A stretch of 64,000 nucleotides of DNA from Rubripirellula tenax (lineage in GTDB: Bacteria; Planctomycetota; Planctomycetia; Pirellulales; Pirellulaceae). The translations under genes and the position numbers were made by a program. Every line of letters starts with the position of its first letter. Position 1 is the stretch's first letter. Below are positions 34,095 to 40,027 of this stretch, piece by piece. Under the pieces are notes generated by a model, which saw nothing but the letters and a program-made list of their open reading frames with translations, was not told the origin of the DNA and ran no database searches. Where the stretch lies: contig NZ_SJPW01000002.1 of assembly GCF_007860125.1 (NCBI RefSeq), positions 1,279,768 to 1,343,767 of the forward strand, written 5' to 3'.

Positions 34095-35177
34095 ATGTCA
34101 GAAAGCAGTGGCGATAAGAAGCACTCAGCGTCAGAGAAAAAGCGACGCCAGTCACGCGAGCAGGGCCAGGTTGCCAAGAGCCAGGACTTGACCTCGGCCG
34201 GCATGCTGCTGTCCGCGCTGGCAGCACTTTGGATGCTAGGTGAACCGGCTTGCGAAGCTTTGGCCGGTGCGATCGCCGATGCCCTTTCGACGCCGCGGAC
34301 GGCGCCGCTTCGAACAGGCGATGCGGCCAACTGGCTGCTCTCGGGCGCGGCACGCTACGCGATTGCCGCGGTGCCGATGCTGATTGCGATGTTCATCGCG
34401 GGCGTGTTGGTGAACGTCGTGCAAACCGGACTGATCTTTTCGAGCTCCAAGCTGGAACCGAAACTCAGCAACATCAGTCCGCTATCCGGCGCGAAACGAA
34501 TCCTTTCCCTGCAAGGCGTGATGCGTCTGGGGTTCGGCATTTTCAAGCTGATGATCATCACAGCCGTCGCATACTTCGCGGTGCGGCACTATCGCGATCC
34601 GATCCTTAGCCTTGCTCAGATGAGTATTCCGCAAATTGCAAGCGTGCTGTTCCGATCGTTGATCGGGACCTGCGTTTGGATCGGCGTGGCGCTGTTCGTG
34701 CTTGCGATTCTTGAGTACGCGTTCCAATGGTGGAAGCAAGAACAAGACATGATGATGACCGACCAAGAAATGCGCGACGAAATGAAAGAAACGGAGGGCG
34801 ATCCGCAAGTCGCCGCTCGCCGTCGTCAAGTCCAACGTCAAATGATGATGCAGCGGGCCGAGTCGGAAGTGCCCAAGGCCGACGTGGTCGTTAGCAATCC
34901 GACGGAACTGGCAATCGCGATCAAGTACGACCCCAAAACCATGCCGGCGCCAATCGTGTTGGCGAAGGGCGCGGGCTTACTTGCTCAAAAAATTCGTCGC
35001 ATCGCGCTCGAAAACGGAGTTCCCGTCGTCGAGCGAAAACCGCTCGCTCAATTCCTGTACAAGAACGTTGACGTCGGACAAGTCGTTCCTACCGAGCAAT
35101 ATCAAGCGGTCGCGGAAGTGCTGCGGTATGTTTACCAACTGCAGGGCAAAGAGATCCCCAAAGCGACAGCCGCCTAG
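34095..35177 (+). CDS. flhB: Flagellar export switch protein FlhB with NPTE cleavage site
   Basis: Controls the switch of substrate specificity in flagellar export. 360 residues: a charged N-terminus (KKHSASEKKRRQSREQGQVAKS), four membrane helices at about 30-210, and a cytoplasmic C-domain. The auto-cleavage motif, normally NPTH, reads N268-P269-T270-E271 (gaa at 34905-34907), within VVVSNPTELAIAIKYD. The asparagine and proline needed for peptide-bond scission are kept, but the histidine is replaced by glutamate. All other hallmarks match FlhB. Last gene of fliPQR-flhB. Its stop overlaps the convergent gene's stop. Confidence 0.95.
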   Translation: MSESSGDKKHSASEKKRRQSREQGQVAKSQDLTSAGMLLSALAALWMLGEPACEALAGAIADALSTPRTAPLRTGDAANWLLSGAARYAIAAVPMLIAMFIAGVLVNVVQTGLIFSSSKLEPKLSNISPLSGAKRILSLQGVMRLGFGIFKLMIITAVAYFAVRHYRDPILSLAQMSIPQIASVLFRSLIGTCVWIGVALFVLAILEYAFQWWKQEQDMMMTDQEMRDEMKETEGDPQVAARRRQVQRQMMMQRAESEVPKADVVVSNPTELAIAIKYDPKTMPAPIVLAKGAGLLAQKIRRIALENGVPVVERKPLAQFLYKNVDVGQVVPTEQYQAVAEVLRYVYQLQGKEIPKATAA

Positions 35178-35668
35178 ACGACCATCTCGCGGACGAATTT
35201 GCGAATGCGCGGCGGCATGATGTAACGCGGGTTCCCCGCCGCATCATCGCCCGCGTCTTCGGCCAGCTTCAAGAATCGAATGTCGAATCGATTTTCAAGC
35301 TTTGCGAAGATCGCTTTGGTCGATCGCATTTTGTTCGGCTGAAGCGACAGCGCTTCGTCCAGTTCGGCCAGCGATCGCGGCGTTTCGTCCAGCTTGGCGA
35401 TTCCGGCGACGAACCGCCAAACGCCTCGTTTGCTGATCCGGTTCAGCTTCTGTTTGAGCGGCAATCCTGCCGGACCTTCTTTGACGGCGTCTTGCTGATC
35501 GCCGCCTCGATTCTGCTTTCCTCGTTTCCCGGGCCCGCATGGGCCACCGCGACCTTCGCGACCTTCCGGCAGCGGATCGACACCGGCGCGGTGCAGGCGA
35601 CCGCCGAGTTGTCGGTGGCCTCGTTGGCAGTCACTCAGGTCATCCAGGTTGATCATCAGATAGGGCAT
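35174..35668 (-). CDS. Hypothetical basic protein, 164 residues
   Basis: No family recognised. Starts MPYLMINLDDLSDCQRGHRQ, has a glycine/arginine/lysine-rich stretch at about 35-65 (GREGRGGPCGPGKRGKQNRG) and a helical C-terminal part ending NPRYIMPPRIRKFVREMVV. The stop overlaps the flhB stop in a shared CTAG palindrome, so the genes converge exactly. The frame is open up to 35725, but I chose the ATG at 35668. The composition is low-complexity in the middle, so it could be poorly conserved. Confidence 0.6.
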   Translation of the reverse strand: MPYLMINLDDLSDCQRGHRQLGGRLHRAGVDPLPEGREGRGGPCGPGKRGKQNRGGDQQDAVKEGPAGLPLKQKLNRISKRGVWRFVAGIAKLDETPRSLAELDEALSLQPNKMRSTKAIFAKLENRFDIRFLKLAEDAGDDAAGNPRYIMPPRIRKFVREMVV

Positions 35669-35790: not shown

Positions 35791-35819
35791 TTGCCTGAAA
35801 AGTCGCCCGTGGCTACCAT
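35791..35819 (+). promoter_or_regulatory. Possible promoter of the leuA leader
   Basis: TTGCCT (35791-35796), a 17-base spacer and TACCAT (35814-35819). Transcription from it would start about 7 bases later, at or next to the leader peptide ATG (35826), making the leader nearly leaderless. The hexamers deviate from the consensus at several positions, so this is tentative. A start further upstream is equally possible. Confidence 0.3.
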
Positions 35820-35825
35820 ACGCTC

Positions 35826-35885
35826 ATGAACAACGCATCCCTTCTCCGATCGCTATTACTTTTGCGACGCCGAATCGGCGGGTGA
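35826..35885 (+). CDS. leuL: Leucine-rich leader peptide of leuA (LeuL-like)
   Basis: A 19-codon frame reads MNNASLLRSLLLLRRRIGG and then TGA (35883-35885). Six of 19 residues are leucine, including four in a row (L10-L13, codons CTA TTA CTT TTG at 35853-35864), two of them normally rare. It lies 51 bases before a perfect terminator hairpin and 141 bases before leuA. This is the layout of ribosome-mediated attenuation in enterobacterial leu and ilv operons: charged tRNA(Leu) scarcity stalls the ribosome at the leucine run and prevents termination. No ribosome site is visible, consistent with a nearly leaderless start. Confidence 0.8.
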   Translation: MNNASLLRSLLLLRRRIGG

Positions 35886-35935
35886 TGAGGGTTTGTCCGG
35901 ACCAAACATTGGGTCCACCAAAGAAAGACACCGAA

Positions 35936-35967
35936 CCCGAGTCGCCTCCAGCGACTCGGGTTTTTTT
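35936..35967 (+). terminator. Intrinsic terminator/attenuator of leuA
   Basis: cccgagtcgc (35936-35945) and gcgactcggg (35951-35960) form a perfect 10-bp stem around ctcca, followed directly by seven T (35961-35967). It lies 59 bases before the leuA ATG. An upstream hairpin, ggacc...ggtcc (35899-35916), and a possible competitor of the first stem arm (gcgac at 35864-35868 with cgggt at 35879-35883, against 35935-35945) could act as antiterminator. It could also end the flhB transcript, but the leader peptide argues for attenuation. Confidence 0.82.
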
Positions 35968-36025
35968 ATGCTCCGGTTTTCCCCACCCCCCCTCACCATT
36001 CGTCTCACGAAGGTTTCTCAAAGCG

Positions 36026-37621: not shown

Positions 37622-40027
37622 CTAATCATCTGAATCGTCATCGGACGCAGTGAACCCTTCGAATTCCTCATCATCGGCGGGGATTTCGAGGGTGATCTCG
37701 AGGTCTTCGTTCGCAGGTGATGGAGCATTCGGCTGGACGCGCACCGGTGACTCGGGTTCAAGCGAAAGCTCATCATCGTCGTCATCGCCGACTTGGAACG
37801 TCAGCTCGCCCGTCGTCGGGTCCGGGGTCAATTGCAGCGAGTCTTCGTCGGGTTCGAAGGAGTCTTCGCTGCGGAGCATCTGGATTTTTGGTGCCGGATC
37901 GTCGCCGTTGTTTTCGTCGCCGCTATCATCGTCGTCGCCAAACATGTTGCCCAAGTCGAGTGGTTCCGTGTCCAGTTCGTCTTTGATCGCATCGCTATCG
38001 ATGGCGGCGCGCGACGGCCCGGCGCCGGACAACTCAACATCCGCTACCTCAACGAGCTGAATTTCATCTTCACTGGGTGACGGGTCGAGGGTCGCTTCTT
38101 CATCGTCCGAGTCCGAGACAATGACGACGGTTGCATTCTGATCAGCTTCATCTTCGCTCACATCATCTTCATCGATGAACGCGACCACAGAACCGAGCCC
38201 GTCATCGTCGTCGTCGTCGGTAATCCGGATAGTGTCATTGACGTCGGTGATAGCGACCGAGTCGTCGCCCGAATCGCTCTCGACCAGCGTTGGGCGATCG
38301 GGCAGGTCGTCACTTGCCGGGTCTTCGCCAATGGATTCCGGCACCTCAAACAAATCGTCATCCGTCTGGTCCGCGTCGCCAATCGCGACGGTATCAAAAC
38401 TATCTTTTTCTTCGAACAACGTTTCGACAGGATTCGAATCGAACGGCTCACCGTCGTCGACCTCTTCCGATTCGTCGACTTCTTCTAAGTCATCCAATTC
38501 ATCCGAATCGGGTTTGGCCATTCCCAACCCCATGCCGACTGCTGCTGCTGCTGCTGCTGCTGCGGCGGCGGCTGCTTTGGAACCCCAGTCCATTGCGACC
38601 GTTTCCGAGCCCGGCTCGTCGTCCAGACCCGCCGCCGAATCATCCGCCCAAGTGTCAGCCAAGGGATCGACGCGAACGGCCGAGGCCGTTGGTTCATCCG
38701 GATCGGTCGTCGATGCAGTCGTTCGCCGCGGGAAGATCTCGTCGACATTGTCGCGCAGGACACGCCGCCCCAATTCGATCGCACGTTCTTCGGACCAGCC
38801 GCACTTGTGAACGAAGTGGTCGGCCAAAATGTCCGACAAGACGTTTCGGTACATGTCAAACTTGGGCCACACAAATTCCAACTTGTATGCGTCGCTGTAG
38901 TAGCCGATTTGTTTCGTTTGCGGCACGGCTTCCAAACGCGCCGCAGTATCGCGGGCGATGAACGACGGCGTGTTGCTGTACCACCAGTGCCCGTTCGTGA
39001 TGACGTTGGGAAAGATCCACGCGTAGCTGACCAATTCTTGATTGGTGACGCTGGCCAAGACCGAGATCGGAAACTTGACACCGGGAAACGCGTTGAAGAG
39101 TTCACGATATTGAATCAACGACACGCGGCTGTCGTACAAGTCTTGTCCCTGATAGACACCGCCGGCGTAGACGCCACGATTGACGCCGATCATCAAATCG
39201 AAAGGCAACCCGAATTCGTCGCACAGCTCGGCCAACGTCCAAAAGATTCGCCGTGACAATGATTGCTTGTGAGCATCGTCTGCTAGCAGGCCTCGTTTAA
39301 GCACTTGGTCCAGCGCGGTCGACGCACGCCCGTCGCTGACCCTAGTCGGCTCGAACGATGGTGGCAGCGAAATGGCGCAAGCGCGAGCTCCACGACCGAC
39401 AAAGTGTTCGAAACGTTGCCGCAGCGACGCTCTTAACGACGACAGCGACCCGTCCAATTCGATGCCCGAGCAGCCAGCCAATCGCTGGCGGACTTCCGGT
39501 TTAGCCAAATGGAACACCAAGTCGTCGGTGCGAAGGCAAGGGATGTAAGTGTCCGTATCGAAGCCGGCTAAATCGTCGTCAAAATCATTGGTCAAAAAGA
39601 CGGCTTCGACGTTGCTTTGATCCAAGACGATTTGGGCCCACTCGGCCGACGCCATTTGCGACTCGGCCGTTTCGTAAAGGGACTCCCAATTCGACGCGTC
39701 AATGCGATCACCGTCGAACCCGAAAAACATGCGACAGATCTCAACTAACCATCGATACTGCGCCGTATTCTCCAGCGGCGACAAATTCTCGACCAAGCGG
39801 CGAACCAGTTCCCGTGGCTGGATGCCGGGTTCTTCGATTTGATCCTTCGGCATCCCGGCCGAATGGGCCAATTCGGTGTAATAGTGGTAGCCCAGCAGGT
39901 CCGCCAACGTTGTGGACCCGGCCGCGTGGGGGTTGATGTGCGTATGGGGATCGATCAAGCGGATCGAGGCAATGGCTTCGTAGATGGATTCGCGTGCAGA
40001 GTCAGACATGGGCAAACGGGCCGTCAT
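37622..40027 (-). CDS. Glucuronate-isomerase-like protein with acidic tail of about 370 residues
   Basis: 801 residues in two parts. Residues 1 to about 430 resemble uronate isomerase UxaC: IRLIDPHTHINPHAAG near the N-terminus, DLLGYHYYTELAHSAGM, GVNRGVYAGGVYQGQD and NGHWWYSNTPSFIARD. They are amidohydrolase-fold, but some UxaC features may be altered. Residues 430-801 are a low-complexity, extremely acidic tail (runs of D and E, few aromatic residues) with a poly-alanine block at residues 485-496 (12 codons, 38540-38575, mostly GCA). Normal UxaC has about 470 residues and no tail. It is convergent with leuA. The enzymatic reaction and the location of the protein are not established. Confidence 0.78.
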   Translation of the reverse strand: MTARLPMSDSARESIYEAIASIRLIDPHTHINPHAAGSTTLADLLGYHYYTELAHSAGMPKDQIEEPGIQPRELVRRLVENLSPLENTAQYRWLVEICRMFFGFDGDRIDASNWESLYETAESQMASAEWAQIVLDQSNVEAVFLTNDFDDDLAGFDTDTYIPCLRTDDLVFHLAKPEVRQRLAGCSGIELDGSLSSLRASLRQRFEHFVGRGARACAISLPPSFEPTRVSDGRASTALDQVLKRGLLADDAHKQSLSRRIFWTLAELCDEFGLPFDLMIGVNRGVYAGGVYQGQDLYDSRVSLIQYRELFNAFPGVKFPISVLASVTNQELVSYAWIFPNVITNGHWWYSNTPSFIARDTAARLEAVPQTKQIGYYSDAYKLEFVWPKFDMYRNVLSDILADHFVHKCGWSEERAIELGRRVLRDNVDEIFPRRTTASTTDPDEPTASAVRVDPLADTWADDSAAGLDDEPGSETVAMDWGSKAAAAAAAAAAAAVGMGLGMAKPDSDELDDLEEVDESEEVDDGEPFDSNPVETLFEEKDSFDTVAIGDADQTDDDLFEVPESIGEDPASDDLPDRPTLVESDSGDDSVAITDVNDTIRITDDDDDDGLGSVVAFIDEDDVSEDEADQNATVVIVSDSDDEEATLDPSPSEDEIQLVEVADVELSGAGPSRAAIDSDAIKDELDTEPLDLGNMFGDDDDSGDENNGDDPAPKIQMLRSEDSFEPDEDSLQLTPDPTTGELTFQVGDDDDDELSLEPESPVRVQPNAPSPANEDLEITLEIPADDEEFEGFTASDDDSDD

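Follow-up and report, generated by a model that had tools for sequence, protein, structure and literature searches.

The leuL leader of Escherichia coli, which contains the rare leucine codon CUA, is translated ahead of the leucine biosynthesis operon. It belongs to the leuL/leuABCD attenuator (Rfam RF00512, Leu_leader), in which a terminator and a competing antiterminator stand before leuA. In the alphaproteobacterium Sinorhizobium meliloti, the attenuator RNA rnTrpL (rnTrpL/trpL), which controls trpE(G), has its 5' end at the AUG of the leader open reading frame (ORF) (PMC7298713). Actinobacteria carry the LEU element, a leader peptide with a run of leucines before leuA that involves the Shine-Dalgarno box in a pseudoknot and sequesters it, without an intrinsic terminator (PMC1262725). 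Here, we analysed the region ahead of leuA in a window of 64,000 nucleotides (nt) from Rubripirellula tenax (Pirellulaceae; contig NZ_SJPW01000002.1, positions 1,279,768 to 1,343,767), and conclude with a probability of about 90% that it is a ribosome-mediated transcription attenuator tying leuA expression to charged leucyl-tRNA.

The locus has a short, conserved ORF that is specifically rich in codons for the end product of the pathway, an intrinsic terminator of a non-generic kind between this ORF and the structural gene, and a mutually exclusive antiterminator whose 5' strand begins just past the leader stop codon. It shares with leuL the logic, the terminator, the competing antiterminator and the downstream leuA, and with rnTrpL a 5' end at the leader AUG, which is here predicted. 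It differs from leuL in the predicted leaderless mRNA, in a separate hairpin (hairpin A) and in having only leuA downstream, and from rnTrpL in the amino acid (Leu instead of Trp), the controlled gene and the host. Leaders of Xanthomonadales such as Dyella and Rhodanobacter ('LVLVLLITNGGAG') also precede leuA together with a terminator, but their control codons are a mixture of Leu, Val and Ile, and their peptides have a conserved end of another kind. The RF00512 model reached 12.0 bits in the window (gathering cut-off 50; E = 9.8), i.e. no usable likeness in sequence or structure, and the present element is absent from Rfam.

Leucine leaders and terminators before leuA

In the window, the leader ORF contains 6 leucines among 19 codons, four of them in a row. 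It is followed by a terminator whose G+C-rich core of 10 base pairs (bp; CCCGAGTCGC/GCGACTCGGG) extends to 13 bp (35933-35963) around a CUCCA loop and runs into seven T (35961-35967). The hairpin folds with -23.7 kcal/mol (z = -7 compared to shuffles). An earlier note on this DNA, made from the letters alone, had described the frame, the leucine run, the 10-bp stem and the T tract ahead of leuA, and we confirmed all of them where it had placed them. The start of leuA lies 58 nt past the last T. Its product is a true 2-isopropylmalate synthase (TIGR00973, 714 bits compared to a cut-off of 599), and leuA is the sole gene behind the attenuator, the next gene being on the opposite strand.

Conservation was assessed in leuA loci from all 20 genomes of the genus with a close match, 99 further loci of the family and 37 from the rest of the phylum. 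The automatic detector required two things: a short ORF in which, within the last 30 codons, one residue takes up 4 or more of 8 codons, and, 10-80 nt further on, a T run behind a hairpin that folds with -9 kcal/mol or better. A Leu-rich leader with a terminator roughly 40-50 nt further on was present in 19/20 loci of the genus, where the terminators mostly share the arm AACCCGAGTCGC; the exception is broken by an insertion (see below). Across the Pirellulaceae, both parts were found before leuA in 94 of 119 loci and 44 of 55 genera, and outside the family in 19/37 loci, including 15/15 in one family of the same class (f3) and single loci in f2, f25, f39 and f47. When the detector was set to other residues in the same 119 loci, it returned few calls (Ser 4, Thr 3, Ala 2, Arg 1, Gly 1, Val 1, Ile 0, Pro 0), and dinucleotide-shuffled upstream regions gave 1/476 for Pirellulaceae and 0/148 for other families. 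As a positive control, it was applied to an independent set, in which it recovered leu/ilv-type leaders of Xanthomonadales. Leader and terminator also come and go together in the family loci (94 with both, 15 with neither, 10 with one only; Fisher p = 4e-11). At two loci outside the class, L275 (f47) and L278 (f39), the leaders ahead of leuA end in LLLLGAHAG and LLLLSAHCG and are accompanied by terminators, which suggests that the attenuator reaches other classes of Planctomycetota.

The element appears to be specific to leuA. A strict pattern of the terminator sequence is matched in 12 genomes of the genus, each time at a single place upstream of leuA, and no such leader or terminator was found when hisG, trpE and ilvB of the genus were checked by gene. 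CUA accounts for 38% of Leu codons in the leaders of the genus, whereas its share in leuA is 4.6% (Fisher p = 1.6e-21); a sensor of charged tRNA would be expected to show such a bias.

The broken locus amounts to a natural knock-out. At L086 (G003:C2, about 38361-38458), a 98-nt palindromic element resembling a repetitive extragenic palindrome (REP), GTAGGCCGGAACAAGCG ... CGCTTGTTCCGGCCTAC, occupies the place at which the leader would normally start. The promoter is kept and the leader is gone, while the terminator has decayed, with pairs missing from its stem and a U tract that is only partly left, as would be expected if an unrelieved terminator silenced leuA. The end motif of this element has 131 near copies (64+67) in the 6.6-Mb genome G003. 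Near matches number 13 in G002 and a handful in G013 and G016, while the remaining 18 genomes, including that of the window, have none.

Competing structures and promoter geometry

In the nascent-RNA fold of the window, strand 2 (GGGUUUGUC), which begins 3 nt beyond the leader stop codon, pairs with strand 3 (GACA..AACCC) to form an antiterminator that encloses hairpin B. The AACCC of strand 3 doubles as the base of the terminator 5' arm, so that antiterminator and terminator are mutually exclusive. Two such structures had been called for in the earlier note. Across genera, strand 2 begins either with the stop codon itself (UAGGGG in many genera) or 3 nt beyond. In this position, a terminating ribosome would mask it, and a ribosome stalled at the control codons would leave it free. 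A different arrangement is seen in genus g35, which includes Stieleria (L139, L140, L141 and L143): its Leu-run leader continues through strand 2, which there encodes MRVCT..., and ends about 25 nt short of the terminator. A ribosome would therefore cover strand 2 during translation and not at the stop codon.

Between genera, the elements differ strongly in length and sequence. Within the genus, the arms are too conserved for formal covariation and the sequence alignment misaligned hairpin A, so that a comparison of own and swapped partners took its place. The stretch that begins at the leader stop and extends some 20 nt past it was paired with the region just before and at the terminator base. 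Duplex energy was better with the own partner than with those of other genera in 47 of 60 genera (p = 9e-7), and better than with shuffled partners (p = 2e-6; 60 genera). At least 4 bp of the antiterminator helix appeared in the minimum-energy nascent-RNA fold of 94/113 loci, compared to 57 expected. Clear pairings of differing sequence include GGGGUUUGUGU:ACACAAACCCC (L182), GGGGAUGUGU:ACACAUUCCC (L181) and GGGGUUGUUUGG:CCAGAACAACCCC (L183). Pairing specificity, codon bias, promoter geometry and hairpin A were not used for finding the loci. The leucine-dependent transcription control proposed in the earlier note is thus well supported by the conserved leucine run and hairpin, the exclusive structures and the pairing specificity.

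Hairpin A, within the final leader codons, is kept with at least five different stems in the genus and its near relatives (CGCC/GGCG, CCGC/GCGG, ACGCU/AGCGU, GCUGCU/AGCAGC and CCACG/CGUGG), and its energy lies on average 2.3 kcal/mol below that of shuffles (p = 7e-6). As changes of the stem alter the end of the peptide, it seems to be the RNA, and not the peptide, that is under selection there. A role as a pause or spacing hairpin is possible.

The predicted promoter of the window, TTGCCT-17-TACCAT, is followed by 6 nt and then the leader ATG. With a -10 element so close, the leader mRNA is predicted to be leaderless: transcription would begin at 35826, the A of the leader AUG, or right beside it. 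At the same place and distance, a better promoter is seen in most relatives within the genus (TTGAC[GC]-18-TA[AC]CAT, e.g. with TAACAT as -10). Rubripirellula shares with several related genera a -10 element 6-7 nt from the leader ATG and a TTGAC-type -35 element at 17-18 nt. Among family promoters scoring at least 9/12, 40 have this 6-7-nt spacing, and the others lie 27-81 nt upstream, mostly as TTGACC-17-TAGAGT. The nearly leaderless start suspected in the earlier note is thus predicted for a set of genera in which this geometry is conserved.

Table 1 Features of the proposed leuA attenuator region in the window
Feature	Position	Strand	Basis or detail
Predicted sigma-70 type promoter	-35 TTGCCT 35791-35796, 17-nt spacer, -10 TACCAT 35814-35819	+	Genus-conserved motif, alignment
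Leader peptide ORF MNNASLLRSLLLLRRRIGG	35826-35885	+	ATG, 18 more codons and TGA (UGA 35883-35885)
Control codons CTA TTA CTT TTG (four adjacent Leu)	35853-35864	+	Sequence and codon bias
Hairpin A, CGCCG-AAT-CGGCG, within final leader codons	35868-35880	+	Stem kept with changed sequences
Strand 2 GGGUUUGUC, antiterminator 5' half	35889-35897	+	Nascent-RNA fold and own-versus-swapped pairing test
Hairpin B, GGACC-AAACAUUG-GGUCC, inside antiterminator	35899-35916	+	Fold; relatives have other stems at the same place
Strand 3 (GACA...AACCC), antiterminator 3' half	35927-35938	+	Nascent-RNA fold
Intrinsic terminator, 13-bp stem, 5-nt loop and seven U	35933-35967	+	Fold, uniqueness per genome
leuA, 2-isopropylmalate synthase, 527 amino acids	36026-37609	+	TIGR00973, Pfam HMGL-like and LeuA_dimer

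Points against attenuation and other explanations

Several observations weigh against attenuation. The window's own promoter is a weak match (8/12) and was left unflagged by a strict consensus promoter scan. Eleven of the 55 sampled Pirellulaceae genera gave no detector match, and in genus g11 all seven sampled loci (L142, L146-L149, L156 and L157) have neither leader nor terminator, either because both were cleanly lost or because leucine is controlled in another way there. Formal covariation counts in the genus alignment do not exceed those of shuffles, because strand 3 serves two partners and the arms are nearly invariant. Of the conservation anticipated in the earlier note, the leucine run and hairpin were therefore found in the genus and the family, while compensatory changes escape formal proof within the genus, where the terminator arm hardly varies. 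The likeness to leuL that it had drawn also stands in part: the logic and the rare CUA codons agree, while the trp-type 1:2 protector pairing is weak over genera (p = 4e-4) and not significant in the genus group.

One rival would make the hairpin the terminator of the upstream flhB operon, with leuA transcribed from its own promoter downstream, and flhB indeed lies upstream of leuA in 23 of the 39 loci with 1.5 kb of upstream sequence. However, 15 of the 16 loci without flhB within 1.5 kb have leader and terminator (the 16th is the insertion-broken locus), and other families keep both as well; on these loci, the flhB terminator, which the earlier note had named as a refuting option, was rejected, and we give it next to no chance. 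In the window, moreover, flhB ends at 35177, more than 750 nt away, with an opposite-strand ORF shared with near relatives in between, and the scan found no promoter-like site downstream of the terminator. The leucine run, the CUA bias and the strand 2/3 pairing would also go unexplained by a generic terminator. The intervening ORF (164 amino acids, 35177-35668, minus strand) has no Pfam or NCBIfam match and is conserved in the two closest relatives only (L083, 79% identity; L084, 60%). Another rival is a T-box or other metabolite-binding RNA that drives the terminator, with the leucine ORF being incidental, as terminator/antiterminator switches of this type also occur in T-boxes and riboswitches. 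It is hard to reconcile with the roughly 47 nt available between leader and terminator, with a leucine run that is conserved while the surrounding RNA varies, and with the Rfam scan of the window at gathering and relaxed thresholds, in which no T-box was matched, no family reached gathering level and matches below threshold were at chance level only. An earlier survey likewise found no T-box in the one planctomycete genome that it covered (PMC2494555), and we consider this explanation extremely improbable.

A leucine-rich leader might also act without intrinsic termination, through translation coupling, Rho or a pseudoknot like that of the LEU element. Actinobacterial leuA leaders with a leucine run and a pseudoknot offer a precedent, and mutations in the Streptomyces leuA leader do not fit classical attenuation (PMC1262725). 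We regard this as unlikely here, given a strong intrinsic terminator that is co-conserved with the leader and has a competing antiterminator. The leader RNA or peptide might, in addition to attenuation, act in trans, as reported for peTrpL/rnTrpL of Sinorhizobium; the predicted leaderless leader has the architecture of rnTrpL (PMC7298713). The C-terminal ends of the peptides, however, change along with hairpin A, as if the RNA and not the peptide were selected, and such an added role seems improbable.

Proposed mechanism and implications

From the anatomy of the locus and the trp/leu paradigm, we infer leader translation, the start site, stalling, termination and the response to leucine as follows. 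Transcription would start at the A of the leader AUG, and a ribosome translating the leaderless leader would follow RNA polymerase directly. If Leu-tRNA runs short, this ribosome would stall on CUA-UUA-CUU-UUG, covering hairpin A at most and leaving GGGUUUGUC free to pair with GACA..AACCC; the resulting antiterminator, enclosing hairpin B, would use up the base of the terminator 5' arm and allow read-through into leuA. When leucine is plentiful, the ribosome would reach the UGA with its footprint over GGGUUUGUC, and with this strand masked the terminator would form, ending transcription at about 35967 and giving an RNA of about 142 nt.

This attenuator would depart from the paradigm in its leaderless start and in having no clear protector pairing, and without translation the leader might be read through. 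We tentatively suggest, though with considerable doubt, a planctomycete-specific type with a leaderless leader, no protector hairpin, default read-through of an untranslated leader, and a hairpin A that paces polymerase and ribosome. In this reading, the leaderless form would also have arisen secondarily within the family, since other genera keep a 5' untranslated region (UTR) of 20-80 nt before the same kind of leader.

Ribosome-mediated attenuation is itself of a known kind; what is apparently new is its occurrence in Planctomycetota, and the conserved leader, predicted to be leaderless, is also of interest. No description of a planctomycete leader attenuator was found in the open literature searched, which did not cover the 2010 comparative survey of Lopatovskaya and others and leaves priority unproven. 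Planctomycetota have an unusual internal membrane layout, and the coupling of transcription and translation in them is debated. Attenuation by a leader peptide needs tight coupling of the two, and its conservation implies such coupling in Planctomycetota. Default read-through of an untranslated leader, if true, would turn the trp paradigm around. Since sister genera differ in having a leaderless or a 5'-UTR version, they provide a natural comparison of how the mode of initiation affects attenuation. In a group for which few genetic tools exist, the element would also make a simple switch that responds to leucine.
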